Source: Thermoanaerobaculia bacterium (GTDB lineage: Bacteria > Acidobacteriota > Thermoanaerobaculia > Gp7-AA8). From it: a DNA stretch of 64,000 bases. The notes beneath the pieces were generated by a model. That model was not told where the DNA came from, did no database searches, and was given only the letters and a program-made list of their open reading frames with translations. Shown piece by piece: positions 1 to 17,628 of the stretch. A program made the position numbers and the translations under genes. The DNA lies in assembly GCA_017883205.1 (NCBI GenBank), contig JADGNZ010000004.1, positions 1 to 64,000 on the forward strand. The letters run 5' to 3'. How positions within the stretch are numbered: position 1 is the stretch's first letter; each line of letters begins with the position of its first letter.

Positions 1-555
1 CCCGATGAGAAGTTCTGCACCCCCGATGAGAAGTTCTGCACCCCCGATGAGAAGTTCTGCACCCCCGATGAGAAGTTCTGCACCCCCGATGAGAAGTTCC
101 GCACCCCCGATGAGAAGTTCTGCACCCCCGATGAGATGTTCTGCACCCCCGATGAGATGTTCCGCACCCCCGATGAGATGTTCTGCACCCCCGATGATGT
201 GGTCTGCACCCGCGATGCTGTGGTCTGCACTCACGATGCTGCGGCCTGCACCCACGATGCTGTGGCCTGCACCCACGATGCTGCGGCCTGCACCCCCGAT
301 GCTGCGGCCTGCACTCACGATGCTGTGGCCTGCACGCACGATGATGTGGTCTGCACTCACGATGCTGTGTTCTGTACCCACGATGCTGCGGTTTGCACTC
401 ACGATGCTGCGGTCTGCACCGATGACGCTCCGGTTTGCGGCCGCGGTGCTGTGTTTTGAACCATAGACGGTGCGTTTTGGGCCATCGATGGTGTGTTTCG
501 AACCGTCGACGCCTCGTTTGAACCATCGGTGGCGTGTTTCCAACCATGGATGCTT
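1..555. repeat. 21-bp tandem repeat array (minisatellite), array 1
   Basis: A 21-bp unit, best seen as CCCGATGAGAAGTTCTGCACC, is repeated from the window edge. The first nine or so units are nearly identical. Units from about 190 drift to GATGCTGTGGTCTGCACTCAC types, and a strongly diverged tail with cores like CCATCGATGG reaches about 555. Twenty-two units are countable to 460. Because 21 is a multiple of three, long stop-free frames occur (7-residue repeats such as MRSSAPP), but these are probably not genes: no ribosome binding site, and several frames are open together. The array continues beyond the left edge. Unit decay is directional, from identical on the left to degenerate on the right. 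Confidence 0.95.
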
Positions 556-674
556 CGTTTTCCTGGGTTCCTAAGAGAATCGAAGTGGTTACCGCGGTAG
601 GACTCCGCAGGTCGTTGGCCATGACACGAAACGATCGACGCCCCCGTTCCGCGAAACCTCGTTATCATTCCGGA

Positions 675-2150: not shown

Positions 2151-2185
2151 ACCGAATTGAGCGGAAAGCAGTCATCCTTGTCGCG

Positions 2186-2400: not shown

Positions 2401-2519
2401 GCCTTCGCAGGCGGGCCGGGGTCTGCAAGTTTGTTCTAGGAGTTTGCGCGGCAGAAATTACGAACTCGTACTTCACACAAGTAAGAACGTCGACGGATTT
2501 CGACCTCCGCCCCTTACAG

Positions 2520-2618
2520 CACTCGGGCGAGGACGCCCGAGTGCCCGCGGTCGAGACGACCGCACTCCTTCCGACGTGCGTACCTCGCAGCGCCGAGGAG
2601 TGCGGGCGTCTCGCCCGC
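2520..2618. repeat. REP/BIME-like cluster of three hairpins
   Basis: Three short perfect hairpins lie side by side: CACTCGGGCG/CGCCCGAGTG (2520-2543, loop AGGA), GCGGTCG/CGACCGC (2547-2563, loop AGA) and GCGGGCG/CGCCCGC (2602-2618, loop TCT). The second and third are inverted versions of one unit (GAGTGCGGKCGTCTC), the arrangement of bacterial interspersed mosaic elements. They lie exactly where the ends of a DUF433 gene and a vapC gene would be. Confidence 0.8.
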
Positions 2619-2700
2619 GGCCATCGGGGCGTCCCGCCTCGGTGGTCGGGCCTGGCCTGATAGCTCCAATGGTTTGAAACGGGTCCAGATCTGAAAACAA

Positions 2701-2772
2701 GCCCCTTTTAACCAGAGCACTGGCGTCGAGATACAGCGGATCGGCCCAGACGCTCTCTTTCTGCGGGCTCAC
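2701..2772 (-). pseudogene. VapC-type PIN toxin, N-terminal remnant
   Basis: The ATG at 2772 overlaps the stop of the antitoxin gene by 4 bp (ATGA), as in an intact vapBC pair. The product begins MSPQKESVWADPLYLDASALVK; LYLDASALVK is the beta-1 strand of PIN ribonucleases, with the first catalytic Asp. After about 24 residues similarity ends and the frame enters the REP-like hairpins. The remaining roughly 110 residues of a PIN domain, including the other acidic residues, are missing. The toxin is therefore dead while its antitoxin remains. Confidence 0.75.
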
Positions 2773-2999
2773 AGGCGGCCGTTGCGGTCGTCGATCACGG
2801 CTTGTGACAGCGCGATCTCACGGCGTTTGAACAGACGACGTGTCCGCGACAGATCGGGAAAGCCCTGAGCGAGCTCCAGTGGCGCGAGGCGGGCCACAGC
2901 ACGGCCATGCTCCGTGATCACGACTTCCCGCCCTTTCTTTACGTCGTCGGGGAGAGCCGTCAGGTTTTGACGTGCTTCGCGTACACCGGCTCTTCGCAT
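2769..2999 (-). CDS. Phd/YefM-family type II antitoxin
   Basis: 76 residues (MRRAGVREARQNLTALPDDV...). The N-terminal half has the Phd/YefM fold signature: VREARQNL, then GREVVITEHGRAVARLAPL. The family binds DNA as a dimer through the N-terminal part and neutralises its toxin through the C-terminal tail. Its cognate toxin would be the VapC gene starting inside its stop codon, of which only the first two dozen codons survive. The antitoxin itself looks intact and full length; it may persist as an orphan or because it acts on a related toxin elsewhere. Confidence 0.85.
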   Translation of the reverse strand: MRRAGVREARQNLTALPDDVKKGREVVITEHGRAVARLAPLELAQGFPDLSRTRRLFKRREIALSQAVIDDRNGRL

Positions 3000-3053
3000 G
3001 ATGAAGATTATGGCAGATGTAGCACTTTGCCGGTGTGCGACAGGAACACCAAC

Positions 3054-5300
3054 TTACGGCTTTGCAGGTGCCTCATAGATACGCCGATACTCGTATCGGT
3101 TCCGGCTGACGGTTTTTACGTAGAGTCGCGTTTCCGCAAACGGAATTGATTCGACAAACAGGTCTTCATCATCGACGGGCGTTTGAGCAGTCCATTTGCC
3201 AACTGCGTCTTCGCCTGCGTTGTAAGCGGCGATTGCCAGCATCGGATTGCCTTGCACCGCGGCCAGTTTCTGGGTGTATTCGGCGACGCCGATGGCGATG
3301 TTGACCTTCGGATCGAAGAGTTGTTCGCGTGTCGGAGGCGGCAACCCCGCGGCCGTCGCGATCTTGGCGGCCTCTGCCGGCATGATCTGCATGATGCCGA
3401 CGGCATCGGCATTTGACACGGTCGTGGGCTCGAATCCGCTTTCCTGACGGATGATCGACGCCATGAGGTATGGATCGACCTGGCGTTTCTCGGATTCGCT
3501 TTTGATCGGGTCCCAGTAGTTCAGCGGGAAGAGAATCTCCCAGAAGCGATGCGGGACGTTCGTGCCGCCGTGGCGGACGAACTGGCGGAACTTCTTCTGC
3601 AGAACGTTGTTGGCAGAAAACGGCTCGCCGCCCTGCACGTAGAGATCGGCGAGCATGAACTGCATGCCGAGGTTTGCGGAGTAGGCGGCGGCGAGCGACT
3701 TCATCTCGCGCGTTGCGTCGCGATAGAGGCCGAGCCACGCCAGCTCGCGCACGGAGTCGAGGCGCGGCTCGTTGACAGATGCCAGTTGGCCATCGACGTC
3801 CGGAAAGACGTTGCCGTTGGTGACTTCGTTCGGCGCAAGCACCGGCTCGCCCGCGATCTGGCGTGCGCGAAAACTGAAGTAGCTGTACGGGTACCGCGTC
3901 TCGAGTTCATGGAACGCGGCGTCGCGGAGCTCGCGCTGCCCTAGGCGGTCGTGAATCTTGCCGGCCCAGAAGAGCGAGTTCGAGAGGTAGTCGCCGTCGG
4001 GGTACTGCGTCATGTAGCGGCCGAAGGTGCGAAGTGCGTCGTCATCGCGCTTCGCAAGGAAGTAGGTCCAGCCGAGCGTCCAGAGGTTCTCGCCTTCGTT
4101 GCCGAGAGCGCCGGCGGCGATGGCGGCTTCGAGGTTGGAGATCGCCTTGTGGTAGTCCACCTCGTCCGTCACGTAGTACTTCGCGCGAAGGATCTTCGCT
4201 TCGGCGGCCTCGCTCGTTTTCGGAAATCGCTTCTCGACTTGGCGCAATCCCGCCAGGAACGCGTCCGGTTGGTTGGCGCGCCAAGCGGCGCGCGCACGCG
4301 TGAGGATGAGCGACGGTTCGGTGAGCTTGACGTGCGTGGTCTCGGCGAGCAGGTCGGTGTAACGGCGCGAGTTGAAGAGCGCACGCAGGCGTACGCCGCG
4401 ATAGGCGTTCGATTTCCTGCTCTCGCTTGGGAAGCGGGAAGCGATGCGGGCGAGCAGATCGAAGGCGCGGCCGTAGCGGTCGTTGCGTCCGAGTTGTTGC
4501 GCGATTTTCAGCTCGTCATCGAAGGAAAGCGCATCGAGCGGCGACGGTGTGGCCATCGCGACGTGATCGTACGTGTCCTCGGTGAAGCGGCCTTGCGTGA
4601 GCTCGGTGAGAAGGCGCATGCGCAGCGGCGTGGCCAGATCCATCCGCCCCGCTTTTGCCATCGACTTCGCCAGCGCAACAAAGTCCTCCTCGGTCAACGC
4701 ATCAATTCCAATGCCGTTCGCGATTTGAAAGGATGCGTTCGTGTTCGCGGCGTCGCCGGAGGCCGCGTAGAACGCCGGCAGGCGCAAGCGGGCGATGGTC
4801 GCCGCGGAGCTGGCTGGCGTGTTTTGGATAAGGCGGTTCGCGTTGAGGATGGCATCCGGCCAGTTGGCGGCGTCGGCATCGATGGCGACGATGCGCAGAC
4901 GCAACCAGGGGGCGACGAGAGGATCGGCATCGGCGGCCTGCGCGAGTGCCGGCAGCGCCTCCGCGGTCCGCTTCTGATCGACATAGAAAAGCGCGAGAAG
5001 CGCGAGTGCGCGGCGTTGCGTGATCGCATCGGGCGATTGAGTCAGCGATTTGAGCCCGCTCTCGTAAAGGTCGAGCTGCTGACTTGTACGCAGGGCGCGC
5101 ACGTCATCGAGAGCCGGCAGCTTCGGCGGCTCGATGACGGGAGCGGGCGCGGGTTCGGGAGCCGGCGTGGCTGGGACGGGCGCGGGCGGGGGAGTGACCT
5201 CTGGCTTCGATCCGGTGCAGGAAGGCAGAAGAGTGAACGTTGAAAGCAGAAGTACCACGAACCACGACCGAACAGCCTTCTGACCTTTGCCTTCCATCAC
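3054..5300 (-). CDS. Soluble lytic murein transglycosylase (Slt-type) lipoprotein
   Basis: 748 residues. The N-terminus has a hydrophobic stretch ending in a lipobox (LLPSC at about 24-28), then a Pro/Ala/Glu-rich linker, so it is probably a lipoprotein tethered in the periplasm. A long alpha-superhelical U-domain of TPR-like repeats fills about 60-560. The C-terminal GH23 SLT domain carries IIRQESGFEPTT (catalytic Glu), SNADAVGIMQIMP and AIAAYNAGEDAV. It cleaves the MurNAc-GlcNAc bond to give 1,6-anhydro ends. It is about 100 residues longer than E. coli Slt70, mostly linker. The start overlaps the stop of the acetyltransferase gene (ATGA), so the two are translationally coupled. Confidence 0.95.
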   Translation of the reverse strand: MMEGKGQKAVRSWFVVLLLSTFTLLPSCTGSKPEVTPPPAPVPATPAPEPAPAPVIEPPKLPALDDVRALRTSQQLDLYESGLKSLTQSPDAITQRRALALLALFYVDQKRTAEALPALAQAADADPLVAPWLRLRIVAIDADAANWPDAILNANRLIQNTPASSAATIARLRLPAFYAASGDAANTNASFQIANGIGIDALTEEDFVALAKSMAKAGRMDLATPLRMRLLTELTQGRFTEDTYDHVAMATPSPLDALSFDDELKIAQQLGRNDRYGRAFDLLARIASRFPSESRKSNAYRGVRLRALFNSRRYTDLLAETTHVKLTEPSLILTRARAAWRANQPDAFLAGLRQVEKRFPKTSEAAEAKILRAKYYVTDEVDYHKAISNLEAAIAAGALGNEGENLWTLGWTYFLAKRDDDALRTFGRYMTQYPDGDYLSNSLFWAGKIHDRLGQRELRDAAFHELETRYPYSYFSFRARQIAGEPVLAPNEVTNGNVFPDVDGQLASVNEPRLDSVRELAWLGLYRDATREMKSLAAAYSANLGMQFMLADLYVQGGEPFSANNVLQKKFRQFVRHGGTNVPHRFWEILFPLNYWDPIKSESEKRQVDPYLMASIIRQESGFEPTTVSNADAVGIMQIMPAEAAKIATAAGLPPPTREQLFDPKVNIAIGVAEYTQKLAAVQGNPMLAIAAYNAGEDAVGKWTAQTPVDDEDLFVESIPFAETRLYVKTVSRNRYEYRRIYEAPAKP

Positions 5301-5680
5301 ACCCTCCGCTTCATCTGGCCGTCCGCTTCATGAAAACCGACACGCTCGAGAAACTCGCGATGCGCGACCGCGGCGACGAGCCATTCGCGCTTCATCGTCG
5401 TTGCCAGAATCGCGAGCTCGTTCAGCATGACGCGTGCGACGCGTTTGCGCCGTAACTCTTCGGCAACGACGAGGTCGAGGACGCGGATCGCGTCCGGCTC
5501 GATCTCCATCGTCAGCACTGCGGCGAGCTCGCCGACGAGCTTGCCGATGATGCCGGCAGACGGCGCGGGATCACCGCCGTGCTGCGATGCAAATGCGCGA
5601 AGTAGCGCGGCATCGTCAGCCTCAACCGCTCGGACAAAGAGCTTCTGACCCTTCACGTCACTGTCAACGGATGCGTACAA
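5297..5680 (-). CDS. GNAT-family N-acetyltransferase
   Basis: 127 residues with the GNAT core: beta-strands around AVLTMEIEPDAIRVLDLVVAE, the acetyl-CoA loop VVAEELRRKRVARVMLNEL (a variant of the Q/RxxGxG/A motif) and the C-terminal FLERVGFHE strand typical of the family. The substrate is unknown. It lies directly upstream of the lytic transglycosylase with a 4-bp overlap, so it may act on a cell-wall or protein substrate in the same process, but that is inference. It diverges from the recombinase gene. Confidence 0.8.
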   Translation of the reverse strand: MYASVDSDVKGQKLFVRAVEADDAALLRAFASQHGGDPAPSAGIIGKLVGELAAVLTMEIEPDAIRVLDLVVAEELRRKRVARVMLNELAILATTMKREWLVAAVAHREFLERVGFHEADGQMKRRV

Positions 5681-5753
5681 TTTACGCGCCCGCCATCCCT
5701 CAAACCCGCTCCTGTCATGCTTTTACAGCATACCAAGCTCGGGCAAATAATAC

Positions 5754-5781
5754 TTGACAATCAGAGGGGGGGAACTACACT
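5754..5781 (+). promoter_or_regulatory. Sigma70-type promoter for the recombinase gene
   Basis: TTGACA (5754-5759) and TACACT (5776-5781) are separated by 16 bp, with an AT-rich stretch just upstream in an otherwise GC-rich region. The ATG of the recombinase is about 50 bp downstream. Confidence 0.6.
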
Positions 5782-5832
5782 GCCGGAAGCCTCCCAGCAA
5801 CCAATTTAACAATTATTCCGTGAGTGTGAACG

Positions 5833-6807
5833 ATGAACGTGCAAGAAGCGATTGCTGATTTTCTGCAACATGGACATACGGTACGCAATCTCTCCGACCG
5901 CACGATTCGTGCTTACCAATCCGACCTCAGCCAGTTCCAGGTCCACGTGGACGGTGCGGCGATGGTCGACATCACGCCCGATCACCTCGAGCAATATCTC
6001 GACAAACTCGGCACGGGGCCATACCGCGACACGTCGATCCGCCGCAAGGTCGCCGCGCTCAAAGTCTTCTTCCGTTACCTCGAGGAGAAGGGGATGTTCC
6101 CCGAGTCACCGGCGCGAAGGCTGAAGATCCGCAAGCCGGTCGAGAACCGCGTTCCGACGGTGCTCTCCTCCCGCGAAGTGCGCGCGCTGCTTTCCGCGCC
6201 GAAGGATCAGATCGGCGCGCTGGCGGGAACACGCGATCACTCCGCCGGCGGCCGCAACCGCTATTTCTGTGCGATACGCGACAACGTCATCCTCGAGCTC
6301 CTCTTCTCCACCGGCATCCGCATCGGCGAGCTGGTGGCGCTGAACGTGAGCGACGTCGGCGTCGAGAACAACCAGATTCACATCATCGGCCGCGCCACGC
6401 GCGGACGTACGGTGACGATCACGTCGCGCGTTGTCATCGAAGCGTTGATGAACTATCTGGAGATGCGCAGCGAGCGCAGCCTGACCAACGATGCGCTCTT
6501 CGTCGGCCGTTCCGGAACGCGTCTGACGATCTATTCGATCGAGAACATCTTCAAGAAGCACGTTCGGCTCGCCGAGATCAAGCGCCACATCACGCCGCAC
6601 GCGCTGCGTCACACGATGGCTGCGATGCTGGTCTCCTCCGGCGCCGACATCCGCGACATCCAGGAAATCCTCGGGCACGCCTCGATCCTCTCGACGCAGG
6701 TCTATACGCGCCTGCCGATCCAGAAACGCCGCGGCCACACGCCCGCCGATCCTGCCCGCATCCTCGTCGAGTCGCATGGGGCGCGGATGTCGATCAAGAA
6801 GACGTAG
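5833..6807 (+). CDS. Tyrosine recombinase, XerC/XerD-like
   Basis: 324 residues. The N-terminal SAM-like core-binding domain (about 1-95, with LSDRTIRAYQSDLSQF) is followed by the catalytic domain. The catalytic set is visible: Arg in STGIRIGELVAL, HALRH (His-x-x-Arg), LGHAS and the nucleophile Tyr in TQVYTRL. The family resolves chromosome dimers at dif or acts as an integrase. The length and the GELVALNVSDV block fit Xer rather than phage integrases. About 20 extra residues (around 130-155, TRDHSAGGRNRYFCA) are inserted before the first catalytic segment. No phage or integron genes adjoin it. Confidence 0.9.
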   Translation: MNVQEAIADFLQHGHTVRNLSDRTIRAYQSDLSQFQVHVDGAAMVDITPDHLEQYLDKLGTGPYRDTSIRRKVAALKVFFRYLEEKGMFPESPARRLKIRKPVENRVPTVLSSREVRALLSAPKDQIGALAGTRDHSAGGRNRYFCAIRDNVILELLFSTGIRIGELVALNVSDVGVENNQIHIIGRATRGRTVTITSRVVIEALMNYLEMRSERSLTNDALFVGRSGTRLTIYSIENIFKKHVRLAEIKRHITPHALRHTMAAMLVSSGADIRDIQEILGHASILSTQVYTRLPIQKRRGHTPADPARILVESHGARMSIKKT

Positions 6808-6833
6808 GGGGGTTGGAAGTTTCTTGAAAGGCG

Positions 6834-6899
6834 TTTCACGCGGAGACGCGGGGAACACGGAGAAACCCCCTCCGCATCTCCGCGCCTCCGCGTGACAAA
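6834..6899. terminator. Large GC-rich inverted repeat between convergent genes
   Basis: The left arm TTTCACGCGGAGACGCGG and the right arm CCGCGCCTCCGCGTGACAAA form an imperfect stem of about 30 bp. It fills the gap between the recombinase stop (6807) and the peptidase stop (6900), so it is placed to end transcription from both sides. The TTTCACGCGGAG core is a widespread dispersed palindrome type in bacterial genomes. Confidence 0.7.
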
Positions 6900-8195
6900 T
6901 CACGGCAGCCTTTCTTCCGGCGTCCGCACCGGCGAACGGTTGCCGTCGCGATCGATCGCGCGAACTCCCATGAACACGTTGTCGATCGTGAAGTCTTTGA
7001 GCGTGTAGCGGCTGACTTTGCCGGCCGGGATCACTTTCTCCCAATCGTCGGACGTCGTTTCGCGGACGACGATCTCGTAGCCGGCCAGATCAGCATCCGT
7101 TCCCATGTCCCAGCTCAGCGTCGTGTCGTTCGTCACGGCTCCCGAGGCTTTCACGTTCCGCGGCGCAGCGGGAGCGCAGGCGGCAGTGACGAGGGCGACA
7201 GCGTTGACCGAGGCGACGACGCGCATGTAGTCGGGAGAGACGAATTGGGGGAGGTCGCCGTACTGCACGCCGTTCTCCACGCGCACGGTCTGGTGCTCGT
7301 GTTTGTAGTCCTCATTCGCCTCGCTGAAGCGGATGGCCGGGAAGCCCTTCTCGAAGAACGGCGTGTGATCGCCGCCGCGTCCGAATCGATCGAGACGGTA
7401 GATCAGGCGCGCGTTGACGTGCGGCAGCCAGACGCGCGCGCCGTCGCGTACGAAGCGCGCCCAGTGCCGCGCCGATCCTTCGCCCGCGCCTTTCGGATTC
7501 GCCGAGAAGATGCGCACTGTGTGATTGTCGACGTCGCCTTCGCCGCCGACCGCGCCGCCGACGATGTCGTTCGTGATCATTCCTTCCACGTTCCACTTCT
7601 TCGCCACTGCTTCCTCGGCTAGCCCCCGCGATCCCAGCAGTCCCTGTTCTTCGCCCTGAACGGCGGCCAGCATCACGGTGGCTTCGAGAGGATGCTGCGA
7701 GAGCACACGCGCCAGTTCCAGGATCACGGCAACACCCGAGGCGTCGTCGTCGGCACCGGGTGCATCGAGGGTGGCGTTCGAGTTGTCGGAGTTGATCGAG
7801 TCGTAGTGACCGGTGGCGATGTAGATGCGGTCGGGATCAGTCGTGCCTCTGATCGTGGCCACCACGTTGATCATCTCAACGGGCTCGTTCTTCGTGCGCA
7901 CGCTCTTCTGCATCGACGATTGATACGCGACCGTCATCCGGCCGCCGCTCGCCGCGGCGATGCGCGTCATCTCATCGAAGATCCACTTCCGCGCAGCGCC
8001 GATCCCGCGCGTTGGCGACGTCGTATCCGAGAGCGTGTGCCGCGTACCGAACGAGACGAGCTTCTCGACCGTCTGCTTCATCCTGGCTCCATCGAGCTGG
8101 CCGGTGATTGCGGCAACATCGGCGCACTGGGCGTGCAGGGTGGCGGTGAACAGAAAAAGGGCGGAGGCGATCAGTAGTCGGCGCATACCGAACAT
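6900..8195 (-). CDS. Secreted M28-family zinc aminopeptidase with C-terminal FN3-like domain
   Basis: 431 residues from the ATG at 8195, chosen because AGAGG precedes it by 4 bp; the frame is open to 8219. A signal peptide (MRRLLIASALFLFTATLHAQ) is followed by the M28 catalytic domain. Metal-binding motifs are ATGHYDSIN (His), GADDDASGVA (Asp), GEEQGLLGS (Glu pair) and a later His in HEHQ. From about 330 an FN3-like domain (PAAPRNVKASG... GYEIVVRET... VRAIDRDGNRS) closes the protein, as in many secreted bacterial M28 enzymes. It probably trims N-terminal residues from peptides outside the cytoplasm. Confidence 0.93.
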   Translation of the reverse strand: MFGMRRLLIASALFLFTATLHAQCADVAAITGQLDGARMKQTVEKLVSFGTRHTLSDTTSPTRGIGAARKWIFDEMTRIAAASGGRMTVAYQSSMQKSVRTKNEPVEMINVVATIRGTTDPDRIYIATGHYDSINSDNSNATLDAPGADDDASGVAVILELARVLSQHPLEATVMLAAVQGEEQGLLGSRGLAEEAVAKKWNVEGMITNDIVGGAVGGEGDVDNHTVRIFSANPKGAGEGSARHWARFVRDGARVWLPHVNARLIYRLDRFGRGGDHTPFFEKGFPAIRFSEANEDYKHEHQTVRVENGVQYGDLPQFVSPDYMRVVASVNAVALVTAACAPAAPRNVKASGAVTNDTTLSWDMGTDADLAGYEIVVRETTSDDWEKVIPAGKVSRYTLKDFTIDNVFMGVRAIDRDGNRSPVRTPEERLP

Positions 8196-8227
8196 CGTAC
8201 CTCTGCGCTGAGCTTGCAAACGTTTTT

Positions 8228-8294
8228 AACCACAGAGACACAGAGGTCACAGAGTAACGGTTTGAAACTCTGTGTCCTCAGTGTCTCTGTGGTT
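8228..8294. repeat. Long inverted repeat of the ACCACAGAGACACAGAG type
   Basis: Two 27-bp arms (8228-8254 and 8268-8294) match at 25 of 27 positions when one is reversed, with a 13-nt loop. The arms read AACCACAGAGACAC and GTGTCTCTGTGGTT at the outer ends. The element lies between two minus-strand genes; the last codons and TGA of the upstream gene (8278-8280) are made from its right arm. It could act as a terminator or be a dispersed palindromic element. Confidence 0.85.
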
Positions 8295-9249
8295 GATCTT
8301 TGTCTGATCTTCCGAAGATAGTCTGACTCAGAAACGAGAACCGCGGATCGCCGGCCGCCGCGCGGAGAAGCGCGTAGACGCCAGCGTTGACGATCGCGGC
8401 GACGACTAGTCCTCCGATCACGTTGCGGATGCACTTGCCCCACAACCCGCTCTCGACCTTCTGCGGATCGCCGCGCAGGAGTTGGATGACGCCGTCTGTG
8501 CCGCCGGGCACCAGCCCGTGTTTCGCCGCCGACCAACTGCCGATGACGCAAACCTGCTCGCCCGGCACCACGATCTGCTCGGTCAGCGTCTTGCCCGAAA
8601 GATCGCGCTCTTCCGTCATCTTCCAGTCCTTGCGAAGATGTCCGTCATCGTCGGTCAGCACGTCGCGGATCTGCTGGTAGATCTGGCCGGGATGGAAGCC
8701 CTGCATGTCGGTGAAGGGCGTCGACGCGATATATGCCGCGGCGTTCTGCCGTGCTGCATCGGTGTCCAGTGTCGTCTTTGGGAAACCTTCCAGCAGCGGA
8801 AACCCAAGGAGGTTGATCGATCCGCGCGAGGAATCGATGGCCGTCGGAGCCAATGCGAAGCCGGAGTAGTCCTTCGCAGTGCTCGTGCTCTCCCGGTCCT
8901 GCGAGATGTGCTCAATCTCATAGCTGTACAACACCGCCGGCTGATCGCTGAACGGAGCGCGCAGCGGCTCGCCCAGCGCGCGAACACGGCCAACGATCGT
9001 GACCGTCTCGCCGTCCGTCATCTCCTCGCCGCTGAATCCCGCGAACGACGACTGACTCGACACGCGCGACGCATCCCGCGCCGCCATCGCCGCCGTCCGC
9101 AGCGCCCCCGTCGAGATCCACATGAAGAAGCTGGCGATGCCCACGCTCCACCAGAGCACCGGCGGCTCGACATGGCCATGCAGCAGATACCAATAGCCGC
9201 CGATCAAGGCGAAGAGGATGAAGAGCGTGACGAAACAACCTCGCTTCAT
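8278..9249 (-). CDS. GIDE-domain-like membrane protein
   Basis: 323 residues. Two N-terminal membrane segments (about 5-25 and 33-50) precede a soluble domain with GRVRALGEPLRAPFSDQPAV then YSYEIEH. This pattern resembles the GIDE domain (PF12483), where a short PL-xAP-xS-x-xPxxxY motif is conserved. A further membrane segment lies near 285-305 (IGGLVVAAIVNAGVYALL). Bacterial GIDE proteins have no RING finger and their role is unknown. The last residues (QPQRH) are encoded by a palindromic repeat, so the C-terminus has been recently redefined. The assignment rests on motif memory only. Confidence 0.55.
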   Translation of the reverse strand: MKRGCFVTLFILFALIGGYWYLLHGHVEPPVLWWSVGIASFFMWISTGALRTAAMAARDASRVSSQSSFAGFSGEEMTDGETVTIVGRVRALGEPLRAPFSDQPAVLYSYEIEHISQDRESTSTAKDYSGFALAPTAIDSSRGSINLLGFPLLEGFPKTTLDTDAARQNAAAYIASTPFTDMQGFHPGQIYQQIRDVLTDDDGHLRKDWKMTEERDLSGKTLTEQIVVPGEQVCVIGSWSAAKHGLVPGGTDGVIQLLRGDPQKVESGLWGKCIRNVIGGLVVAAIVNAGVYALLRAAAGDPRFSFLSQTIFGRSDKDQPQRH

Positions 9250-9282
9250 GATGGCAATCCTAACGCCGAGACCACGGTTCGA

Positions 9283-9680
9283 GACATCGATGTGAAGGAG
9301 CTCGACTTCGATGTCGTGAATCGAGACTGCGATGTGGAAGATCTGGACATCGATGTCGTCGATCGAGACTGCGATGTGGCGAATCCCGACTTCGATGTCG
9401 TCAATCGAGACTGCGATGTGGAGAATCTGGACATCGAGGTCGTCAATCGAGACATCGATGTGGAAAATCTGGACTTCGATGTGGAAAATCTCGACATCGA
9501 TGTGGAAAACCGAGACATCGATGTGGAAAATCTGGACATCGCAGTTAGAGATCTGGACATCGATGTGGAAAACCGAGACATCGATGTGGAAAATCTGGAC
9601 ATCGCAGTTAGAGATCTGGACATCGCAGTTAGAAATCTGGACATCGATGTGGAGAACCTCGATGTCGTCGCAGCCAATCT
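9283..9680. repeat. 21-bp tandem repeat array (minisatellite), array 2
   Basis: About 18 units of a 21-bp sequence, typically GACATCGATGTGGAAAATCT, run from 9283 to about 9660 with a degenerate last unit. Adjacent units alternate between endings in CTG and CGA, so a 42-bp level is visible. One three-unit block is duplicated exactly in type order (9493-9555 and 9556-9618), a 63-bp higher-order repeat. All units keep a frame open on both strands (DIDVENL-like on plus, MSRFSTS-like on minus) with no sign of a gene. The array starts 34 bp upstream of the GIDE-like gene, so it may sit in or before its promoter. Confidence 0.95.
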
Positions 9681-9955
9681 GCCCTTCGAGACTGACACCC
9701 AGGCAGGGTTGAGATCCGTTCGAGCGCGATTGGGCAGCGGCAGGAACCGCCTTTGTCCGTCTTAGTCCTCTTTACGAGGCACATGCCAAGCGCGCGGCAA
9801 CTCGAGATCCTTCGCCGTCCTGCGGCTCCGAGGAAGGTTTGCGCGAGAGCAACGAGTAGCGCGGCGCCTCCGGCCGGCTCAGGATTGAAACGGCCAGCTC
9901 ATGAACACCCTTCCTCGTTGTACTCACGCCCTTCGTCCCCTACACTTCCCGCCAC

Positions 9956-11356
9956 ATGGCACTTCCGAAAGTTTCCCTCACGCAGAAGATCTTCATCGGT
10001 CTGGCCATCGGTGTGCTCGTCGGCTGGCTCTGGCCCGACTGGGGCACCGCGATGCGGCCCCTTTCGATGCTCTTCCTGAACCTGATCAAGTCGATCATCG
10101 CACCGCTGATCTTCGCCACGCTCGTCATCGGCATCGCCGGCACTGGCGACATCCGCCAGGTCGGCCGCATCGGTTTCAAGGCCCTGCTCTACTTCGAGAT
10201 CGTGACGACCTTCGCGCTCTTCATCGGACTCGCCGCCGTGAACCTCACCAAGCCCGGCGTCGGGGTGTCGCTCGCCGGCGTCCACACGGAAGTGAACAAA
10301 GCTGTCCTCGCGGATCGCGCGTCGAAGCTGGCGAAAGAAGCCAACGTCGCGGCCGCGCACGGCGACAGCGTCACTGCCGCGGCCAAAGCGTCGCAGGCCG
10401 CCGATGCCGTCGGACAGGGCCTCACCGCGCCCGATCCGCCCGCCAAGCCGCAGAAATTCGGGGAGATCATCGCCCACCTCGCGCCGGCCTCGATCCTCAA
10501 AGCGATGGCCGAGGGGGATGTGCTGCAGATCGTCGTCTTCTCGGTGCTGTTCGCTCTCGCGGTCGTGTCGATCGGCGAGAAAGCGCGTCCGGTCATCACC
10601 TGGTGCGAGTCGCTGGCGGACATCATGTTCCGCTTCACCGAGTTCGTGATGAAGTTCGCGCCCATTGGCGTCGGTGCGGCCATGGCGAATACGGTCGGCC
10701 ATTCGGGCCTCGGCGTTCTCAAGAACCTCGGCATGCTCGTGCTGACGTTGTACGGCGCGCTGGTCGTCTTCCTGCTGTGCGTGCTGCTGCCGGTCGCGCT
10801 CCTCTTCCGCGTTCCGCTGCGCGACTTTTTCCGAGCCGTCAAAGTGCCCGCAATGATCGCCTTCGCCACGACCTCCTCGGAGTCCGCGCTTCCGAAGGCG
10901 ATGGAGAACATGGAGCGCCTCGGCGTACCCCGCCGCATCGTCGGCTTCGTTCTCCCCACCGGCTACAGCTTCAACCTCGACGGCACCACGCTCTATCTGT
11001 CGCTGGCGTCGATCTTTGTCGCCCAGGCCGCCGGCGTCCATCTCTCGTGGCCGCAGCAGATCATCATGCTGCTGACCCTGATGCTGACGTCGAAGGGCGT
11101 TGCCGGTGTTCCCCGCGCATCGCTGGTCATCCTTCTGGGCACGCTGGCGTCGTTCAATCTTCCCGCCGAGGGCGTCATCGTCATTCTCGGCGTCGACGAA
11201 TTGATGGACATGGCCCGCACCTGCGTCAACGTCATCGGCAATTGCCTTGCAACAGTCGTGGTTGCACGATGGGAAGGCGCCTTCCGAACGAAGGAGTGGA
11301 TCGCCGAAGAGGCGGACCTGGAGCAGGCGATCGGTCTGCCGGCGATTGCCGGTTGA
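9956..11356 (+). CDS. Dicarboxylate/amino acid:cation symporter (DAACS family)
   Basis: 466 residues with the GltP/DctA architecture: eight helices plus two re-entrant hairpins. Visible motifs are FATTSSESALPKAME (HP1 serine-rich loop), GYSFNLDGTTLYLSLA (the TM7 NMDGT region, here NLDGT), SKGVAGVPRASLVIL (HP2) and ARTCVNVIGNCLATVV (TM8, with the Asp-Asn substrate/cation contacts near DELMDMARTCVNV). Between about 110 and 165 is an Ala-rich hydrophilic insertion absent from the compact members. It takes up C4-dicarboxylates or acidic amino acids with Na+ or H+. It stands alone. Confidence 0.95.
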   Translation: MALPKVSLTQKIFIGLAIGVLVGWLWPDWGTAMRPLSMLFLNLIKSIIAPLIFATLVIGIAGTGDIRQVGRIGFKALLYFEIVTTFALFIGLAAVNLTKPGVGVSLAGVHTEVNKAVLADRASKLAKEANVAAAHGDSVTAAAKASQAADAVGQGLTAPDPPAKPQKFGEIIAHLAPASILKAMAEGDVLQIVVFSVLFALAVVSIGEKARPVITWCESLADIMFRFTEFVMKFAPIGVGAAMANTVGHSGLGVLKNLGMLVLTLYGALVVFLLCVLLPVALLFRVPLRDFFRAVKVPAMIAFATTSSESALPKAMENMERLGVPRRIVGFVLPTGYSFNLDGTTLYLSLASIFVAQAAGVHLSWPQQIIMLLTLMLTSKGVAGVPRASLVILLGTLASFNLPAEGVIVILGVDELMDMARTCVNVIGNCLATVVVARWEGAFRTKEWIAEEADLEQAIGLPAIAG

Positions 11357-11432
11357 TGATGCCTAACCGCTGATCGCGAGTCGATGCCACTCCGACACCC
11401 GACTCCCGACAAGCGACCCCCGCGAGGTGATG

Positions 11433-11876
11433 ATGAAACGAACCTATGCATTCCTGGCCGCTGTTCTCCTTCTTGCCGGCTGCGCCTCCAGCGCTGACGA
11501 AGACCCGAACGCCTCGAAGATCACGCTGCACCTCGAGCAGGTCGACACGGGAGCGAATACGTTCGCGAGCCCCGGACCAGTCACGGTGCAGTTCGTCCTG
11601 ACCGGGACGAATACGACGACGGAGCCACTGACGCTCACACGCCTCGAAGTCCGCACGATCAGCGATGGCGCCTACAGCATTCCGCCGGTCACGAGGACCC
11701 TCAACGTGCAGCTCGCTCCCGGCCAGTCGCAGCAGACCCCGATCTCCGTCTTGGGCAACGCTCACGGCGGCCGGTGGTACTCCGACGCGCCGGTCACGAT
11801 GCGCAGCACGGGCTACCTGACCGGTTCGAAAGGCCCCTTCGTCAAACTCTTCACTGAGACCATCGTCCAACGCTGA
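11433..11876 (+). CDS. Small lipoprotein, first of a tandem pair
   Basis: About 147 residues. GAGG lies 5 bp before the ATG at 11433. A signal peptide ends in a lipobox LLAGC, so the mature protein should be a lipid-anchored periplasmic protein. The rest is a single beta-rich domain (ITLHLEQVDTGANTF, PVTVQFVLTGTNTTTEPLTL, RLEVRTISDGAYSI, TGYLTGSKGPFVKLF). I recognise no family. The next gene encodes a protein of the same layout with roughly 60-65 percent identical residues, so this is a tandem duplication. Confidence 0.8.
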   Translation: MKRTYAFLAAVLLLAGCASSADEDPNASKITLHLEQVDTGANTFASPGPVTVQFVLTGTNTTTEPLTLTRLEVRTISDGAYSIPPVTRTLNVQLAPGQSQQTPISVLGNAHGGRWYSDAPVTMRSTGYLTGSKGPFVKLFTETIVQR

Positions 11877-11967
11877 CGCACGGTATCGCTGCCGATTTGG
11901 AGGAATGATGTCCGCAGCAAGGGAGTTGCAGCCGATGACCGGGTGCCCCCGAGGTTGGGAGCTGACG

Positions 11968-12414
11968 ATGGCAAAACGAATCTATGCGCTGCTGGCTGTG
12001 CTGCTCCTCGTCGCAGGCTGTGCGTCGAGCGCGGATGACGACCCAAACGCTCCGAAGGTCGCGCTGCACCTCGAACAGGTCGACACGGGCGTGAACACCT
12101 TCACGTTCGCCGGTCCGGTGACCGTGCAGTTCGTGCTGACCTCCTCGAACACGACGAGCGATCCCGTGACGCTCACCCGTATCGAGATCCGCACCGTCAG
12201 CAGCGGCGCCTACAGCATCGCGCCGACCATGACGAACCTGAACCTGCAGCTCGGCCCCGGACAGACGCAACAATCGATGATCTCCCTCTGGGGCTACGCC
12301 AGAGGCGGCCGCCTCTACTCCGAGGAACCAGTCACCGTCCGCGGAACCGCATACCTGACCGGCCCGAAGGGCGCGTTCGTCAAACTCTTCACGGAGTACA
12401 TCGCGCAGCGGTAA
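11968..12414 (+). CDS. Small lipoprotein, second of a tandem pair
   Basis: 148 residues from ATG 11968; the frame opens at 11905 but the signal peptide MAKRIYALLAVLLLVAGC starts here. Like its neighbour it has a lipobox (LVAGC), CASSADDDPNAPK and the same beta-rich domain (VALHLEQVDTGVNTF, VTVQFVLTSSNTTSDPVTL, YLTGPKGAFVKLF). The pair lies immediately left of the tRNA-derived repeat that opens the accessory island. Function unknown; a periplasmic or outer-membrane lipoprotein is inferred from the signal only. Confidence 0.8.
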   Translation: MAKRIYALLAVLLLVAGCASSADDDPNAPKVALHLEQVDTGVNTFTFAGPVTVQFVLTSSNTTSDPVTLTRIEIRTVSSGAYSIAPTMTNLNLQLGPGQTQQSMISLWGYARGGRLYSEEPVTVRGTAYLTGPKGAFVKLFTEYIAQR

Positions 12415-12450
12415 CGCGCTCCATATGTACAATCCCCCTCCCAACCGCGA

Positions 12451-12518
12451 GCGGGCGTAGCTCGGTTGGTAGAGTAGGAGCTTCCCAAGCTCCATGCCGA
12501 TCATTTCCGATGACCGCG
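12451..12518 (+). pseudogene. tRNA-Gly(CCC)-derived element, copy 1 (possible attachment site)
   Basis: GCGGGCG, TA, a D-arm (GCTCGGTTGGTAGAGT) and a full anticodon arm (GGAGC, loop TTCCCAA, GCTCC) form the 5' half of a tRNA with anticodon CCC. The expected T-arm (GGTTCGANTCC) and 3' acceptor strand are missing; instead the sequence is CATGCCGATCATTTCCGATG. The same unusual 3' part recurs in the copy at 17629. It is not a functional tRNA as read. It ends 5 bp before the first island gene. Confidence 0.7.
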
Positions 12519-12523
12519 AAGGA

Positions 12524-13306
12524 TCACCTGGTCGCTCCTGATGTTCCATCCGCACGTGCATTTAACCATCTGACTTGGTTATCAAAGTTCTTCTTATAGG
12601 TGTCCATGTTATCGATCCCTGCCGCGATAGGTTCGACCACGGCAAACGTGACGCCATGCTTCCGGAAGACGGGGGACATGTGCTCGGGAAGGTTGCCGCT
12701 GCAGACGATCACGCTTTGTTCCACACCTCTCTGCTCCATCTCGGCTAAAAGCCCATCGGCCATCAGGGACGCACGCTCTTTTGTTTTTTCGTTGAACTGG
12801 AGAAATGCTTCATAGGAGTCGGAAAATCGCGATGGGATGCTTGCCGACTTTGTCTCCCTGACGTATTGAACCACCGGCAAGGCTTTCGCCCAGAGTCGAG
12901 AGCTCTCATCGTAAAGCGCCTTGTCCTCCGCGCCGAAAAGCCAAACTGTTCGGCCGCTGGAAATAGCGGTCGCCACGGCGTGTTCCGCTGGGGCGAGCTT
13001 TAAGTCGAGCAGCAGGTTATCGAGAATCGCCAAGCCCCCGTCGGCGTTGACACTATTCCGAAGAAACGTCAAGTCGACCTCGCCACCGCTGGCAGCTTCA
13101 GTGCCTACCAGCGATATCAGTCCTGTCTTTAGCAGTCGGCCGAGAAGCAGAGCCAGGGCCCAGCGGGCACTTGGATTCCACGGGATGTCATGGAACAGCA
13201 CAACAATCCTGGCGTCATCGGTTTCTTGGATATCTACGAGGGTCCCTCCGTATTCGGGCTTCAATCCCCTCAGTGCCGTTAGCAGAACGTGCTTATTGGA
13301 GTTCAT
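12524..13306 (-). CDS. TIKI/TraB/ChaN-like protein, third gene of the NACHT operon
   Basis: 260 residues, no signal peptide. I do not recognise it firmly. The N-terminal half has RIVVLFHDIPWNPSARWAL then LISLVGTEAASG. The C-terminal part has KERASLMADGLLAEMEQRG, then SVIVCSGNLPEHM and FRKHGVTFAVVEPI. This order resembles TIKI-superfamily proteins (TraB, ChaN), in which a Glu/His pair near the N-terminus and an ER-x-x-x-M helix precede a GGFH-like strand. Here the GGFH His is not in place (SGNLPEH), so it may be non-catalytic. It starts 6 bp after the NACHT gene, so it is probably co-transcribed with it. Coordinates are firm; function is not. Confidence 0.6.
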   Translation of the reverse strand: MNSNKHVLLTALRGLKPEYGGTLVDIQETDDARIVVLFHDIPWNPSARWALALLLGRLLKTGLISLVGTEAASGGEVDLTFLRNSVNADGGLAILDNLLLDLKLAPAEHAVATAISSGRTVWLFGAEDKALYDESSRLWAKALPVVQYVRETKSASIPSRFSDSYEAFLQFNEKTKERASLMADGLLAEMEQRGVEQSVIVCSGNLPEHMSPVFRKHGVTFAVVEPIAAGIDNMDTYKKNFDNQVRWLNARADGTSGATR

Positions 13307-13312
13307 CGGTCG

Positions 13313-14830
13313 CTATATCTCCTCATTCAGTTCTCTCTGTTCTAGGTAGAACTGGCTGACATCACATTCATACGCAGACTTTTCGCCCAAGAATCTTGAG
13401 AGGTAGTCATTCTCATCAAACGCCTTTCCAATGTTTCGCTGAACCCAGTTCCTCGCAACGAAAAACGCGGCGAACTTGGGATGCGAGAACCGGCAATAGC
13501 CATCACGTGGTTCCGTCAGCAGAGCGCTTCTCTTCACAATGTGATCAATCCAGTCAGCTGCAGTCGCAATGGGACGATTCAGGTGCGCAGCGACAAATTT
13601 CTCCAATTCACGTCTCGCGAAATCAGTAGACGCCGACAAGCAGTATTTCGCGGCGACCTCTCCGAGAATCGCCAGCTCGTCTTCTAAACTCATCGTTTCA
13701 ATGGCAGGAGCACTGGGCGGCACATTTTGGGCGCGGTCCCGTTCTCTTACCATGACCCGGGCAAACCGTTCAAATAGCCCTGCCTGATCCGGCGGCATGA
13801 CGGCATCCTGGTCGGCGCGTTCATAGACGACACACATCATGGTCAGGAAAAGAGGATTGGCGGCAAGCGATCCCAGGTGTTCCTTTTTGATCATCCCAAC
13901 CAACGCATCTGCCTTTGCCGGCCTGACGCGCCCGAACCACCGACCGATGTACTCAATAACCTCGCGTTCGGAAAACTCCTTCAGCCGGTAGAGCACGGTA
14001 CTTGGCATGCTCTCGACATAGTCAGTGCCGGGACGGGTTGTTATTGCCATCGGGCAGTCCGCGCCGGCGTGCAGCACATCGTCAAGCCACCGCCGGACCG
14101 CGGCCCTTTTTTCGCCCTCCACCTCGTCGGCCCCATCCAGAAGAATAATGGCGCAGCCGCGTTTGACGCAGTCGTTCAGCGCCTTTTCGAGTGCCTCGGG
14201 CCCGCCGGGAAACGACCCGCCGCAACCTTGGGCCGCCGCGCTCACCAGATATTCTGTGGCCAAGTTCACCCTTCGATCCCAATCAACCAGCTGGCGAATC
14301 TGCAGGTAGATCGGTACGCGGCCAAGGCGTCGATCCTTGGCGAGCCGGATGGCCCAATTGCGCAGAAGTGTGGTCTTACCGCCGCCCGCCGGACCAGTGA
14401 TCACGAGTTTCCAGGCACTCTCCTGAAACAGGTCGAGGAGTTCAGACTCCCCCATGCAGTGCCGGTCAGTCGCCGCCTCGACACCCGGGGAGATGTAGAG
14501 ATTCTCGACATCAATATCTCTTCGCAGGCCCAATCCGCGCCAGTATCGGCATTTTTCGCGCAAATCCTCTAGGTAAGCGCCCAGGCCATAGCCCAGCTGC
14601 TCCTGCTGAAGCGAGGTGATTTCGCTAATGACCGTTAACAGCTTCAGGTGTTTCGGACGCTTCTTTATCCAAGTGGCAGCCTCCTGGGATAGCTCCTGAA
14701 GCCTGCTGTATGACAAGTTCGGCCCGATCTCTTCCTGTGTCGTGCGAATCCACTTACGTAGCGCCATTCTCGCGAGAATAGGCTCCTTTATCAGCACCCA
14801 TGTGCTTATGATGTCGCCGATCAGGCTCAT
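13313..14830 (-). CDS. NACHT-domain STAND NTPase
   Basis: 505 residues. An N-terminal helical region (about 1-110) precedes the NACHT module: Walker A GPAGGGKTT (146-154), Walker B IILLDGADE (228-236), sensor ITTRPG (263-268), the LAANPLFLTMMC motif and a winged-helix end with CRFSHPKFAAFFVARNW near 460-476. Unlike most NACHT sensors it has no long C-terminal LRR, TPR or WD40 array; the protein ends about 30 residues later. NACHT proteins oligomerise on ligand sensing, and bacterial ones are known anti-phage factors. The tight spacing to both neighbours (18 and 6 bp) suggests sensor or effector functions are supplied in trans. Confidence 0.9.
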   Translation of the reverse strand: MSLIGDIISTWVLIKEPILARMALRKWIRTTQEEIGPNLSYSRLQELSQEAATWIKKRPKHLKLLTVISEITSLQQEQLGYGLGAYLEDLREKCRYWRGLGLRRDIDVENLYISPGVEAATDRHCMGESELLDLFQESAWKLVITGPAGGGKTTLLRNWAIRLAKDRRLGRVPIYLQIRQLVDWDRRVNLATEYLVSAAAQGCGGSFPGGPEALEKALNDCVKRGCAIILLDGADEVEGEKRAAVRRWLDDVLHAGADCPMAITTRPGTDYVESMPSTVLYRLKEFSEREVIEYIGRWFGRVRPAKADALVGMIKKEHLGSLAANPLFLTMMCVVYERADQDAVMPPDQAGLFERFARVMVRERDRAQNVPPSAPAIETMSLEDELAILGEVAAKYCLSASTDFARRELEKFVAAHLNRPIATAADWIDHIVKRSALLTEPRDGYCRFSHPKFAAFFVARNWVQRNIGKAFDENDYLSRFLGEKSAYECDVSQFYLEQRELNEEI

Positions 14831-14848
14831 ATGGTTCTTGTGCTCGCT

Positions 14849-15661
14849 CTACTTGGTCATCAGGTACTCTACCAGAGCAATGCGCTTATTCACAGCCGAT
14901 TTATAGTCCGGCACCGTCGTTTCTGCGAAGCGTGTTATACGCTTCATGACCGTCAGGGCTGGCGCTGAGATCAGGTAAGATGCATCCTTTAGTATGCGTT
15001 CCGCTTCGGCATCGGATGGGGTCAGCAGGAATGATTCCAGGACTTTGAAAGGGTCTGGTTTATCAGGGCCCTCCACCTTCTCGCAGAGTGCGATTCCCTC
15101 GTTGACTCCTTGCTTCTTACAATTCTTGACGACCCATAACCGATGGGCAAAGCGAAAGGCAGTTGGGCAGTCGCCCGCGTCGTTAACAGAGTGCATGACA
15201 AAGCCCAGCATGGACATCCCCACTACAGACATCAGAACGGGGTTCGCGTCCAAAACAAGCCGAAGCCCGTCCCACGTTTCGGTAGTAGCCTGCGTGGCGA
15301 TGAGTTGACTGAATGAGTCCGGCAGCGACACCGAGGAGCGATCGTTCGGCCATTTCAATACCTCCGCAGCACGGAACCCTTGTATCCAGTGCATCCTCTG
15401 GCGAAAGTACTCAGCCGGAAGCGGGTCTTTGATTTTTGCGTCCGATTCCGCTCGGAGTTGCCCAAGCAAATTCAGTGTTTTGTCGCCCAGCAAACCGGGG
15501 TGCGCGTATACCACCTTGAGAGCTTCTGGCAGCGATTTACAGTTCATGAACTCGCCGAAGGACCCATCAAGAACGGAGGCGGGTTTTGCAGCCCCAGACG
15601 CCCGTAGAAACTGGGTCAATTTCCGGAATAAGGACATCGCAGAAGGGTTAGGGAAAAGCAT
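14849..15661 (-). CDS. Helical-repeat protein, first gene of the NACHT operon
   Basis: 270 residues from ATG 15661 (GGAG 11 bp upstream; the open frame extends to 15886 through Pro-rich sequence, and ATG 15637 is an alternative). No signal peptide or membrane segment. Two related helical segments are visible. One near 45-96 reads PEALKVVYAHPGLLGDKTLN, then LLGQLRAESD. The other, at the C-terminus, reads ERILKDASYLISAPALTVMK, then AVNKRIALVEYL. The HP-x-LL-(N10)-L-(N2)-L pattern is one I associate with repeats flanking CHAT and STAND conflict proteins. It may be the sensor or adaptor of the downstream NACHT protein; that is inference from position and fold. Confidence 0.65.
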   Translation of the reverse strand: MLFPNPSAMSLFRKLTQFLRASGAAKPASVLDGSFGEFMNCKSLPEALKVVYAHPGLLGDKTLNLLGQLRAESDAKIKDPLPAEYFRQRMHWIQGFRAAEVLKWPNDRSSVSLPDSFSQLIATQATTETWDGLRLVLDANPVLMSVVGMSMLGFVMHSVNDAGDCPTAFRFAHRLWVVKNCKKQGVNEGIALCEKVEGPDKPDPFKVLESFLLTPSDAEAERILKDASYLISAPALTVMKRITRFAETTVPDYKSAVNKRIALVEYLMTK

Positions 15662-15890
15662 TTCCCGTTCGACTCCACGGCGCGTGAGATTCCGAGCTTC
15701 TCGCTCCTTCTCCCATGCTCGCTGGCGATTCTGGCCGATTCTGGGCTGATCTTCGAAGGAAGTAAAGGGGGTTTCGGCGGCCCTGACGCATGGAGGCGGC
15801 GGGAAAGGCTGCGTTGGAGGTGTCTGCGCTGCAGCGTCTGCCTGAACGAGCAGCCTGAACGAGCAGGCTTGGCCTCGTCCGGTCATCGCG

Positions 15891-16152
15891 TCAACCTGTT
15901 GCCGAGGGTTCAGTTGACGGAGGGATCGGGCGCCGGCCCGGGGGCGGGTGGCTGGAAGGGCCGGGGCCCGATCCCTCCGTCGCGGTTGCTACGCCCGCTT
16001 TCGCGAGGTACGCGAGAATCTTCGTGATGACGCGCCTCTCGGTGATGATTGCGACGATCCGCATGGTCGCGCCGCACGCGAGAGAGCAGCGGGTCGACCT
16101 CGTAGACGCGGCGGATCAACTCGGCCCAGCGCTTCCGGAGCAGCTTGCGCTC
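15891..16152 (-). pseudogene. IS91-type transposase, C-terminal remnant
   Basis: On the minus strand the segment KLLRKRWAELIRRVYEVDPL is the conserved block of IS91-like transposases that normally runs on into LLCPRCGGTMRI. Here the frame shifts, and a neighbouring frame continues CGATMRIVAIITERRVITKI and then LAYLAKAG to a TGA at 15891-15893. The catalytic Tyr/His domain is missing. The remnant points away from the N-terminal remnant at 16443. Confidence 0.75.
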
Positions 16153-16174
16153 GGTCGTATCGGGCTCGGAGCAA

Positions 16175-16440
16175 ACCGCAGAACGGACGGCGACACTCCT
16201 TGGCGACGACGGGACGGCCGTCACTCCCGTGCCGGCGCTGATTGTCGCCGCACTCTGTCTCGTGGCATTCGCACGTCTCGACTTCGCACGCCTGCCGTTG
16301 CTGGCGATCGCGACGTGCGCCGCAGCGGCGGTCACGATCCATGCCGTCGCTTCGGCGATCAGCGTCGGCGGCGAGGGTACGCACGCACTCGTGCGAACGA
16401 TCATCCTCGCCGCGGCAGCGGTCGCTCTGGTATCGTCTTC
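16175..16440 (+). pseudogene. Membrane-protein fragment between two IS91 remnants
   Basis: About 75 residues of two to three hydrophobic helices (VPALIVAALCLVAFARLD, LPLLAIATCAAAAVTIHAVA, LVRTIILAAAAVALV) in plus frame, without a start signal, ending at the junction with the transposase N-terminal remnant. I cannot name the parent protein. It may belong to the same disrupted gene as the fragment at 16771-17055. Confidence 0.45.
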
Positions 16441-16442
16441 TG

Positions 16443-16775
16443 GAGAGCCCCTACGAGCCGGTCAAGCAAGCGTGGAAAGATCGATTCGAGGATCGCTACG
16501 GCTTCTGGCGCGGGATGGTGGACGGGGCGGTGGCGCGGTATCTGGACTGCGGGATCTTCGAGAACGGCTTCGCCCGGCGCCATTGCAACGGCTGCCAGCG
16601 TGATGTCCTGGTAGCGTTTTCGTGCAAGGGGCGGGGTCTGTGCCCGTCCTGCGGCGCGAAGCGTGGAGCGGCAGCGGCGGCGCGTTTGCGGGAAGAGGTT
16701 CTTGAGGCTGTAGGCCATGCGCAATGGGTCTTCACCGCTCCGAAGATGCTGCGGCCGTACTTCCTTCGCCACCGC
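16443..16775 (+). pseudogene. IS91-type transposase, N-terminal zinc-binding remnant
   Basis: About 110 residues match the transposase zinc-binding domain (PF14319): CGIFENGFARRHCNGCQRD, AFSCKGRGLCPSCGAKRG, then HAQWVFTAPKMLRPYF. The four cysteines of the zinc ribbon are present. It has no start codon context and stops at LRHR, where sequence of a membrane protein begins. With the oppositely oriented C-terminal remnant this marks at least one decayed insertion. Confidence 0.8.
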
Positions 16776-17055: not shown

Positions 17056-17071
17056 GTTGTATGCTCCTGCC

Positions 17072-17397: not shown

Positions 17398-17628
17398 CAC
17401 GTCATCGCCATCATCATGGACGTGCGCGGCAATCGTTCTTCTCGCCCTGATCTAACGTTCTGAGTCTCTATTTGGTCTCAATCACGTCTCTATTTCGGTC
17501 TCTATTTGGTTCTCTTGGACACTCGTTGATACCCGTGGACAGACAGGAACGTGGTAAGCTACCTTTCGCACTTTGTGTTCGTCTCAGGTGGCAGTATCTA
17601 TCGGAGAACGCAGGGGTTGCGGCATCAA

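Follow-up and report, generated by a model that had tools for sequence, protein, structure and literature searches.

The window analysed here is a stretch of 64,000 bp from contig C49 of the 6.37-Mb genome of a Thermoanaerobaculia bacterium, and it carries two tandem arrays with a 21-bp period close to its beginning. The features concerned are listed below, the array at 9283-9680 being the subject of this study.

1..420, no strand assigned: orphan 21-bp array at the contig end, of a different family comprising 15 arrays in the stretches examined (Tandem Repeats Finder, clustering)
451..560, no strand assigned: short adjoining 21/41-bp array with a CCATCGATGG core, in the same family component as 1..420 (Tandem Repeats Finder, clustering)
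8278..9249, minus strand: conserved gene, earlier called GIDE-like (congener homologues; neither Pfam nor NCBIfam match)
9251..9917, no strand assigned: likely insertion of ~667 bp comprising the array with its flanks and missing from both congeners at the orthologous position (blastn)
9283..9680, no strand assigned: orphan 21-bp tandem array of ~18-19 units in 42/63-bp order with core ACATCGATGT (Tandem Repeats Finder, unit print, three relatives)
9493..9618, no strand assigned: exact tandem duplication of a 63-bp three-unit block (sequence)
9772..9885, no strand assigned: piece of the insert matching another dispersed repeat, C100:124929-125042, at 89% (blastn)
9956..11356, plus strand: sodium:dicarboxylate symporter PF00375, the divergent neighbour (Pfam, E 1.6e-115)

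The array at 9283-9680 is a real one. Tandem Repeats Finder (TRF) places it at 9279-9653 with periods of 21, 42 and 63 bp (scores 228, 331 and 322), and when the units are printed in register the first is found at 9283 (GACATCGATGTG...) and the last at about 9681. The first-pass annotation, which was made from the letters of the window, had described here about 18 units with 21/42/63-bp order, an alternation of unit types and a duplicated block of three units, and it proves right in these respects: the two types GACTTCGATGTCGTGAATCGA and GACTGCGATGTGGAAGATCTG alternate from 9304 to about 9450, and 9493-9555 is identical to 9556-9618. The unit has dyad symmetry at p=0.02 by column permutation. 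The other array that had been pointed out, at 1-420, is likewise recovered by TRF; two members of its family in the stretches examined (C16:65675-66319 and C20:67833-68315) are linked to a gene of the kind described below.

The minus-strand gene has its start codon at 9249, with the array beginning 33 bp upstream of it, and the divergent symporter begins 275 bp beyond the array. Homologues with 63-67% identity in two congeners mark the former as a conserved gene, though its designation as GIDE-like could not be upheld, no Pfam or NCBIfam family being matched even at E 10. As side observations in the vicinity, a long near-perfect inverted repeat of the type AACCACAGAGACACAGAG...CTGTGTCTCTGTGGTT lies between two genes at 8228-8300, its motif being also present 3' of a gene of the protein family introduced below (G002:C1 near 112,500), and a tandem pair of paralogous lipoprotein-like genes occupies 11427-12414, the homologue in the congener G002 having an array in the adjoining gap.

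In blastn comparison with the two congeners (G001:C181 and G002:C166), homology ends at 9250-9252 and restarts at 9918, and the congeners have 8-17 bp instead. The window's copy is probably an insertion, which separates the minus-strand gene from the short intergenic region common with the symporter in the congeners. Regulation of the so-called GIDE-like gene, as a conserved feature, was considered as the reason for the array and rejected, since both congeners are without the segment; a connection between array and gene as such is not supported, the array being an orphan copy. Its relatives, 82-85% identical, are two further orphans (C40:3244-3571 and C41:93216-93557) and one gene-linked array (C45:5052-5334), which lies 0.9 kb upstream of the family gene C45:3611-4128 on the minus strand with a small ORF in between. 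An ORF in this position is also present at two loci of G002, and the intervening small ORFs (C45:4200-4900, G002:C193:16637-17158 and G002:C1:113257-113778) have a similar C-terminal part.

Arrays of this period are found throughout the sampled parts of the genome. Six contig stretches with a total of 1,183,752 bp contain 66 tandem arrays with a minimum length of 90 bp. The period is about 21 bp, or a multiple of this, in 52 of them, which together make up 17.6 kb with a median length of 349 bp; the density of arrays in this 1.18-Mb sample is an upper estimate, because the six contigs are non-random and several were known from array matches. The array sequences are very diverse and many are unrelated, though they can be grouped into sequence families. 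The suggestion of the first-pass annotation that it is the period, and not the sequence, which is selected thus gains support: periods elsewhere in the genome are not random, and the 21-bp period recurs among arrays of unrelated sequence. In a count of 66 arrays which includes 14 of the congener G002, the unit length is 21 bp in 54, 22 bp in 11 and 20 bp in one.

Each array consists of about 6-44 units in direct tandem, head-to-tail, with none of the unique spacers by which CRISPR repeats are separated, and the G+C content of many arrays is below the genome value. Nearly all are intergenic, only one of 66 overlapping a predicted gene by more than 20%, in a count for which gene calls mostly within arrays were excluded beforehand and genes were called by a codon-usage script and not by a standard gene finder. 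The orientation of the flanking genes (+- in 18, -- in 17, -+ in 15 and ++ in 11 of 61 cases) is near that of large gaps, and a general promoter preference of the arrays was dropped on this ground; an earlier, smaller count had given a convergent excess. Dyad symmetry of the unit is in excess, with 30 of 66 arrays at p<0.05 by column permutation where about three are expected, while it is non-significant in about half of the arrays; these figures come from a test on all units, and a first test on consensus units gave 7 of 40 at p<0.05.

A second class of intergenic repeats has units of 7 and 14 bp (AGAGATC and GGGAGTC types, at L031, L042, L050 and other loci), the 7-bp units occurring in seven of 66 arrays; the 21-bp arrays have no general 7-bp sub-period. 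At C1:226895, repeats of the 7-/14-bp class stand in inverted orientation on both sides of a 21-bp array, and a different hairpin occupies this place in the congeners.

A 7-residue periodic peptide encoded by the arrays might be thought of, 21 being a multiple of 3 and some frames being open, as might intrinsically curved DNA; we regard both as extremely improbable. The stop-free frames reported earlier on both strands do exist, but they are only a by-product of repetition, for 25 of 93 arrays of the window's genome have no stop-free frame at all in an open-frame scan and units of 20 and 22 bp occur, so that the open frame of a coding tandem repeat is not kept. The curvature which the first-pass annotation had proposed to check is not apparent either: a 10.5-bp periodicity of AA/TT reaches p<0.05 in only 5 of 54 arrays (p=0.29 in the window array).

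Less remote, and a serious rival though improbable in our judgment, is that the arrays are minisatellites, a by-product of slippage which has passed on the 21-bp period from one ancestral array while the sequence was subject to concerted turnover. The exact 63-bp duplication and the higher-order blocks fit such a process, as they indicate ongoing slippage or unequal exchange, and within array families sequence is shared by descent. Against this, units stay at 20-22 bp in spite of single-base indels, beyond a single species and also in a second genus, and slippage alone leaves unexplained the one-sided placement of arrays beside a single gene family, to which we now turn.

Comparison of the genes around arrays yields two recurrent groups, which can be aligned as one family of basic proteins of 150-240 aa with a proline-rich tail, present in multiple copies (~60 paralogues). 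Their median pI is 9.4, against 6.8 for 436 other proteins of similar size, and a basic cluster near the C-terminus is seen in 25 of 30 members compared with 16% of the others. No convincing match was obtained in Pfam, NCBIfam, PHROG or PDB sequences, no transposase model is matched, and a search of viral contigs did not find the family. AlphaFold2, run on eight close sequences, gave an all-helical model of six helices that is unusable at pLDDT 42, and no DNA-binding fold could be recognised. The family profile has 65 matches in the window's genome, 55 in G002, 28 in G009 (another genus), 8 in G001 and 2 in G016; the remaining 35 of 40 relatives have none. Of 148 genomes of the class Thermoanaerobaculia, 5 contain the family. 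From these searches the family appears to be previously undescribed, and in the open literature searched no account of such an array-protein system came up.

The association of arrays with this family is strong. In the window's genome, where 59 family hits lie in the stretches examined, 47 members could be followed upstream for 1 kb or more, and 37 of these 47 have an array within 1 kb upstream, in comparison with 53 of 986 other genes (Fisher p 6e-34), whereas only one of 43 has an array downstream. With the distance extended to 3.6 kb, arrays based on 20-23 bp precede 41 of 48 members having at least 500 bp upstream and are absent from the remaining 7 of 48; a scan of 29 out of 30 family loci gave an upstream array in 21 of 27 testable. 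The same holds beyond this genome, where 14 of 20 testable loci have an upstream array (G001 4/6, G002 5/5, G009 5/7, G016 0/2), with periods of 21, 22 or 43 bp and differing sequences; same-period arrays, which the earlier note had recommended to look for in related genomes, are hence found in other species of the genus as well as in a second genus. At L068 (C100:100742-102647), a single array lies between two divergent family members, such that one array can face two genes.

The number of arrays in the sampled stretches tracks the copy number of the family. The window's genome has 52 in its 1.18-Mb sample and G002 has 14 in 0.41 Mb, while no array with a period of about 21 bp was found in 0.11 Mb (105 kb) of G001 or in 0.37 Mb sampled from five genomes without the family. 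A 100-kb sample of G009 had none either in spite of 28 family copies, and this, like the lack in G001 with its 8 copies, speaks against the pairing. As a side observation, contigs end within arrays or beside family genes at several places (C49:1, C91:1, C37:1, C92:1, the end of C70 and others), and short-read assemblies probably break there, with the system being under-counted.

Array similarity correlates with protein identity (r=0.52, permutation p=0.0005, 56 pairs). Below 50% protein identity, however, r is 0.12 and the arrays resemble each other less than the leaders do; the correlation thus seems to hold mostly among close paralogues, and co-descent would account for much of it. Such a pattern fits co-descent with fast turnover of the arrays as well as recognition of the array by the protein.

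The order in the gene-linked unit is the array, a promoter-like motif, a leader, a Shine-Dalgarno sequence with the ORF and a terminator-like hairpin, the last placed directly 3' of the stop codon in most members printed. One subgroup has the motif NACCTY-N12-17-CGTC[TG]NA close to where the array ends; it was seen in 9 of the 32 upstream regions and occurs 29 times in 1.18 Mb. In another, promoters resembling TTGACA-17-TATAAT were seen by eye in nine regions; since these motifs lie between array and gene, the transcript of the gene should begin downstream of the array. In the second group, conservation of the leader is strong across four species, its consensus fold having 74 pairs with 11 double changes, and CCTCC pairs in this fold with the GGAGG ahead of the start codon. 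This leader of about 250 nt with compensatory changes (alignment A5: L185:1180-1497, L162, L166, L171, L182, L161, L194, L134, L225) has no Rfam match, Rfam giving only a tRNA in positions 1-20000 of the window, and each of its 22 distinct blastn sites is directly followed by a family gene. The CCTCC/GGAGG pairing could hide the ribosome site, and the leader may be considered a candidate for a new cis-regulatory RNA.

A function at the RNA level could also be imagined for the arrays themselves, which when transcribed would form chains of small hairpins bound by the basic protein. The dyads are in line with it, and in some arrays the loops are short and variable and the arms, as judged by eye, change in pairs from unit to unit. 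But the promoter-like motifs would leave the array out of the gene transcript, and a hand tally of mismatches in linked arrays gave no clear excess of G-U over A-C on the gene-sense strand; we hold this to be very unlikely.

Beside the gene-linked units there are arrays which belong to the same sequence families and have neither leader nor gene. A set of 93 arrays with a length of 100 bp or more divides into 41 gene-linked ones and 52 such orphans, although its gene-linked share is inflated by stretches chosen for family genes; a less biased share is 15 of 70 arrays within 3.6 kb of a family hit, from contig samples of both species and four further arrays. Direct matches to a gene-linked array were found for 35 of the 52 orphans and not for the other 17, in a comparison giving 306 directed matches as against 6 with reversed queries as the control. 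The window's insertion is not the only site that differs between species: C1:226895 and C1:306901 are empty in both congeners, the latter inside a larger missing segment, the orphan sites C1:230448 and C1:61542 are empty in G002, and the congeners have other sequence of ~150-250 bp in the gaps of C1:226895 and C1:61542. As the reverse case also occurs, with an array in G002 where the window has a gap of ~35 bp, arrays evidently come and go.

It is here that a selfish, REPIN-like dispersal has to be weighed, in which the arrays are non-autonomous mobile DNA, helped in its spread by the linked protein or by a trans-acting transposase, the period having no function for the host. Array-only copies at sites empty in congeners speak for it, as do families in which several orphans accompany one gene-linked member or a few, and two complete units on C1 which are 87% identical over 1.2 kb, a stretch running from the array to shortly beyond the terminator, and have unrelated flanks; moreover, the genome has 15 Y1_Tnp matches. 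Yet none of these 15 falls within the six contig stretches holding 52 arrays, the linked protein matches no transposase model, the arrays are direct tandems and not REP doublets, and at the insertions examined neither a target-site duplication nor a terminal structure was clearly seen. By eye, the 6-base sequence TCATGA recurs on either side of the window insert and C1:230448 has an imperfect repeat; both were tried as target-site duplications and discarded as too weak. We take this dispersal to be unlikely, though a serious rival and less improbable than the alternatives above.

The explanation we favour, with a probability of about one half, is that the window array belongs, as an array-only orphan, to a two-part array-protein system limited to a few Thermoanaerobaculia (Acidobacteriota). 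A protein partner for the arrays is strongly suggested, because the basic family is encoded just downstream of the gene-linked arrays. The phased protein binding of the first-pass annotation has thereby obtained a candidate protein, and we infer the binding itself from the high pI of the family and the dyads of the units. Each array would be a DNA platform for its partner protein; with units of two helical turns, and a dyad in about half of the arrays, the bound protein would be placed on one face and could bind cooperatively. At its own gene, binding would set the protein's own promoter, and the orphan copies would provide further binding sites elsewhere on the chromosome. Selection would act on the two-turn spacing, the unit sequence drifting along with the protein. 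More tentatively, and at somewhat less than even odds, there may be ~60 paralogous array-protein pairs, each protein acting on a private two-turn-phased array with satellites several times the gene number in intergenic DNA, which would make mutually orthogonal nucleoid or regulatory networks.

To our knowledge, bacterial genomes with so many tandem arrays of one period and many sequences are rare. If the period is read by the protein family, ~60 diverged protein-site pairs would form a natural series in which to follow how recognition specificity evolves; if the arrays are instead selfish, they would represent non-autonomous DNA of a new class whose partner is not a transposase. In both cases, what looks like a minisatellite in raw sequence can be tied to one gene family and tested.

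Regarding known systems, cyanobacterial STRR are heptanucleotide short tandem repeats and find a parallel in the second repeat class with 7-/14-bp units. Borg archaeal extrachromosomal elements are reported to have pervasive, fast-evolving tandem repeats (PMC9879509). The arrays here differ from those of Borgs in the fixed 21-bp period and the linked gene family.

Iteron-Rep systems have a similar layout, with a repeat array upstream of the gene of an autorepressing, array-binding protein. In ParR/parC and TubR/tubC, an array of short direct repeats precedes the gene for a small DNA-binding protein, which binds the array and represses its own promoter (PMC5016525). The family genes are likewise preceded by an array, the DNA binding of their products being supposed by us. 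ParR/parC-like binders have an RHH or winged-helix fold; the family has no Pfam hit, and its low-confidence model has six helices. As differences, no recurrent motor gene (ParM, TubZ, ParA) appears among the flanking genes in an all-against-all comparison; and in contrast to both systems, the one here is chromosomal, with ~60 copies and a large excess of orphan arrays.

REPIN/RAYT systems comprise many dispersed extragenic and partly palindromic repeats, in families tied to one or a few protein genes and at non-orthologous positions (PMC3116915, PMC8266576). The dispersed extragenic copies that share sequence with a gene-linked copy, and the array-only copies elsewhere, are alike in organisation. 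Distinct from REPIN/RAYT are the linked protein, which is no HUH/Y1 transposase by any profile (Pfam, NCBIfam, PHROG), the direct tandem units of 20-22 bp in place of two inverted REPs forming one hairpin, and the ~60 paralogues, most with a private array. The defining protein features of REPIN/RAYT were looked for and are absent, those of ParR/parC or TubR/tubC would be putative at most, and the system is assigned to neither group; its closest analogues appear to be REPIN/RAYT in organisation and ParR/parC or TubR/tubC in local anatomy.
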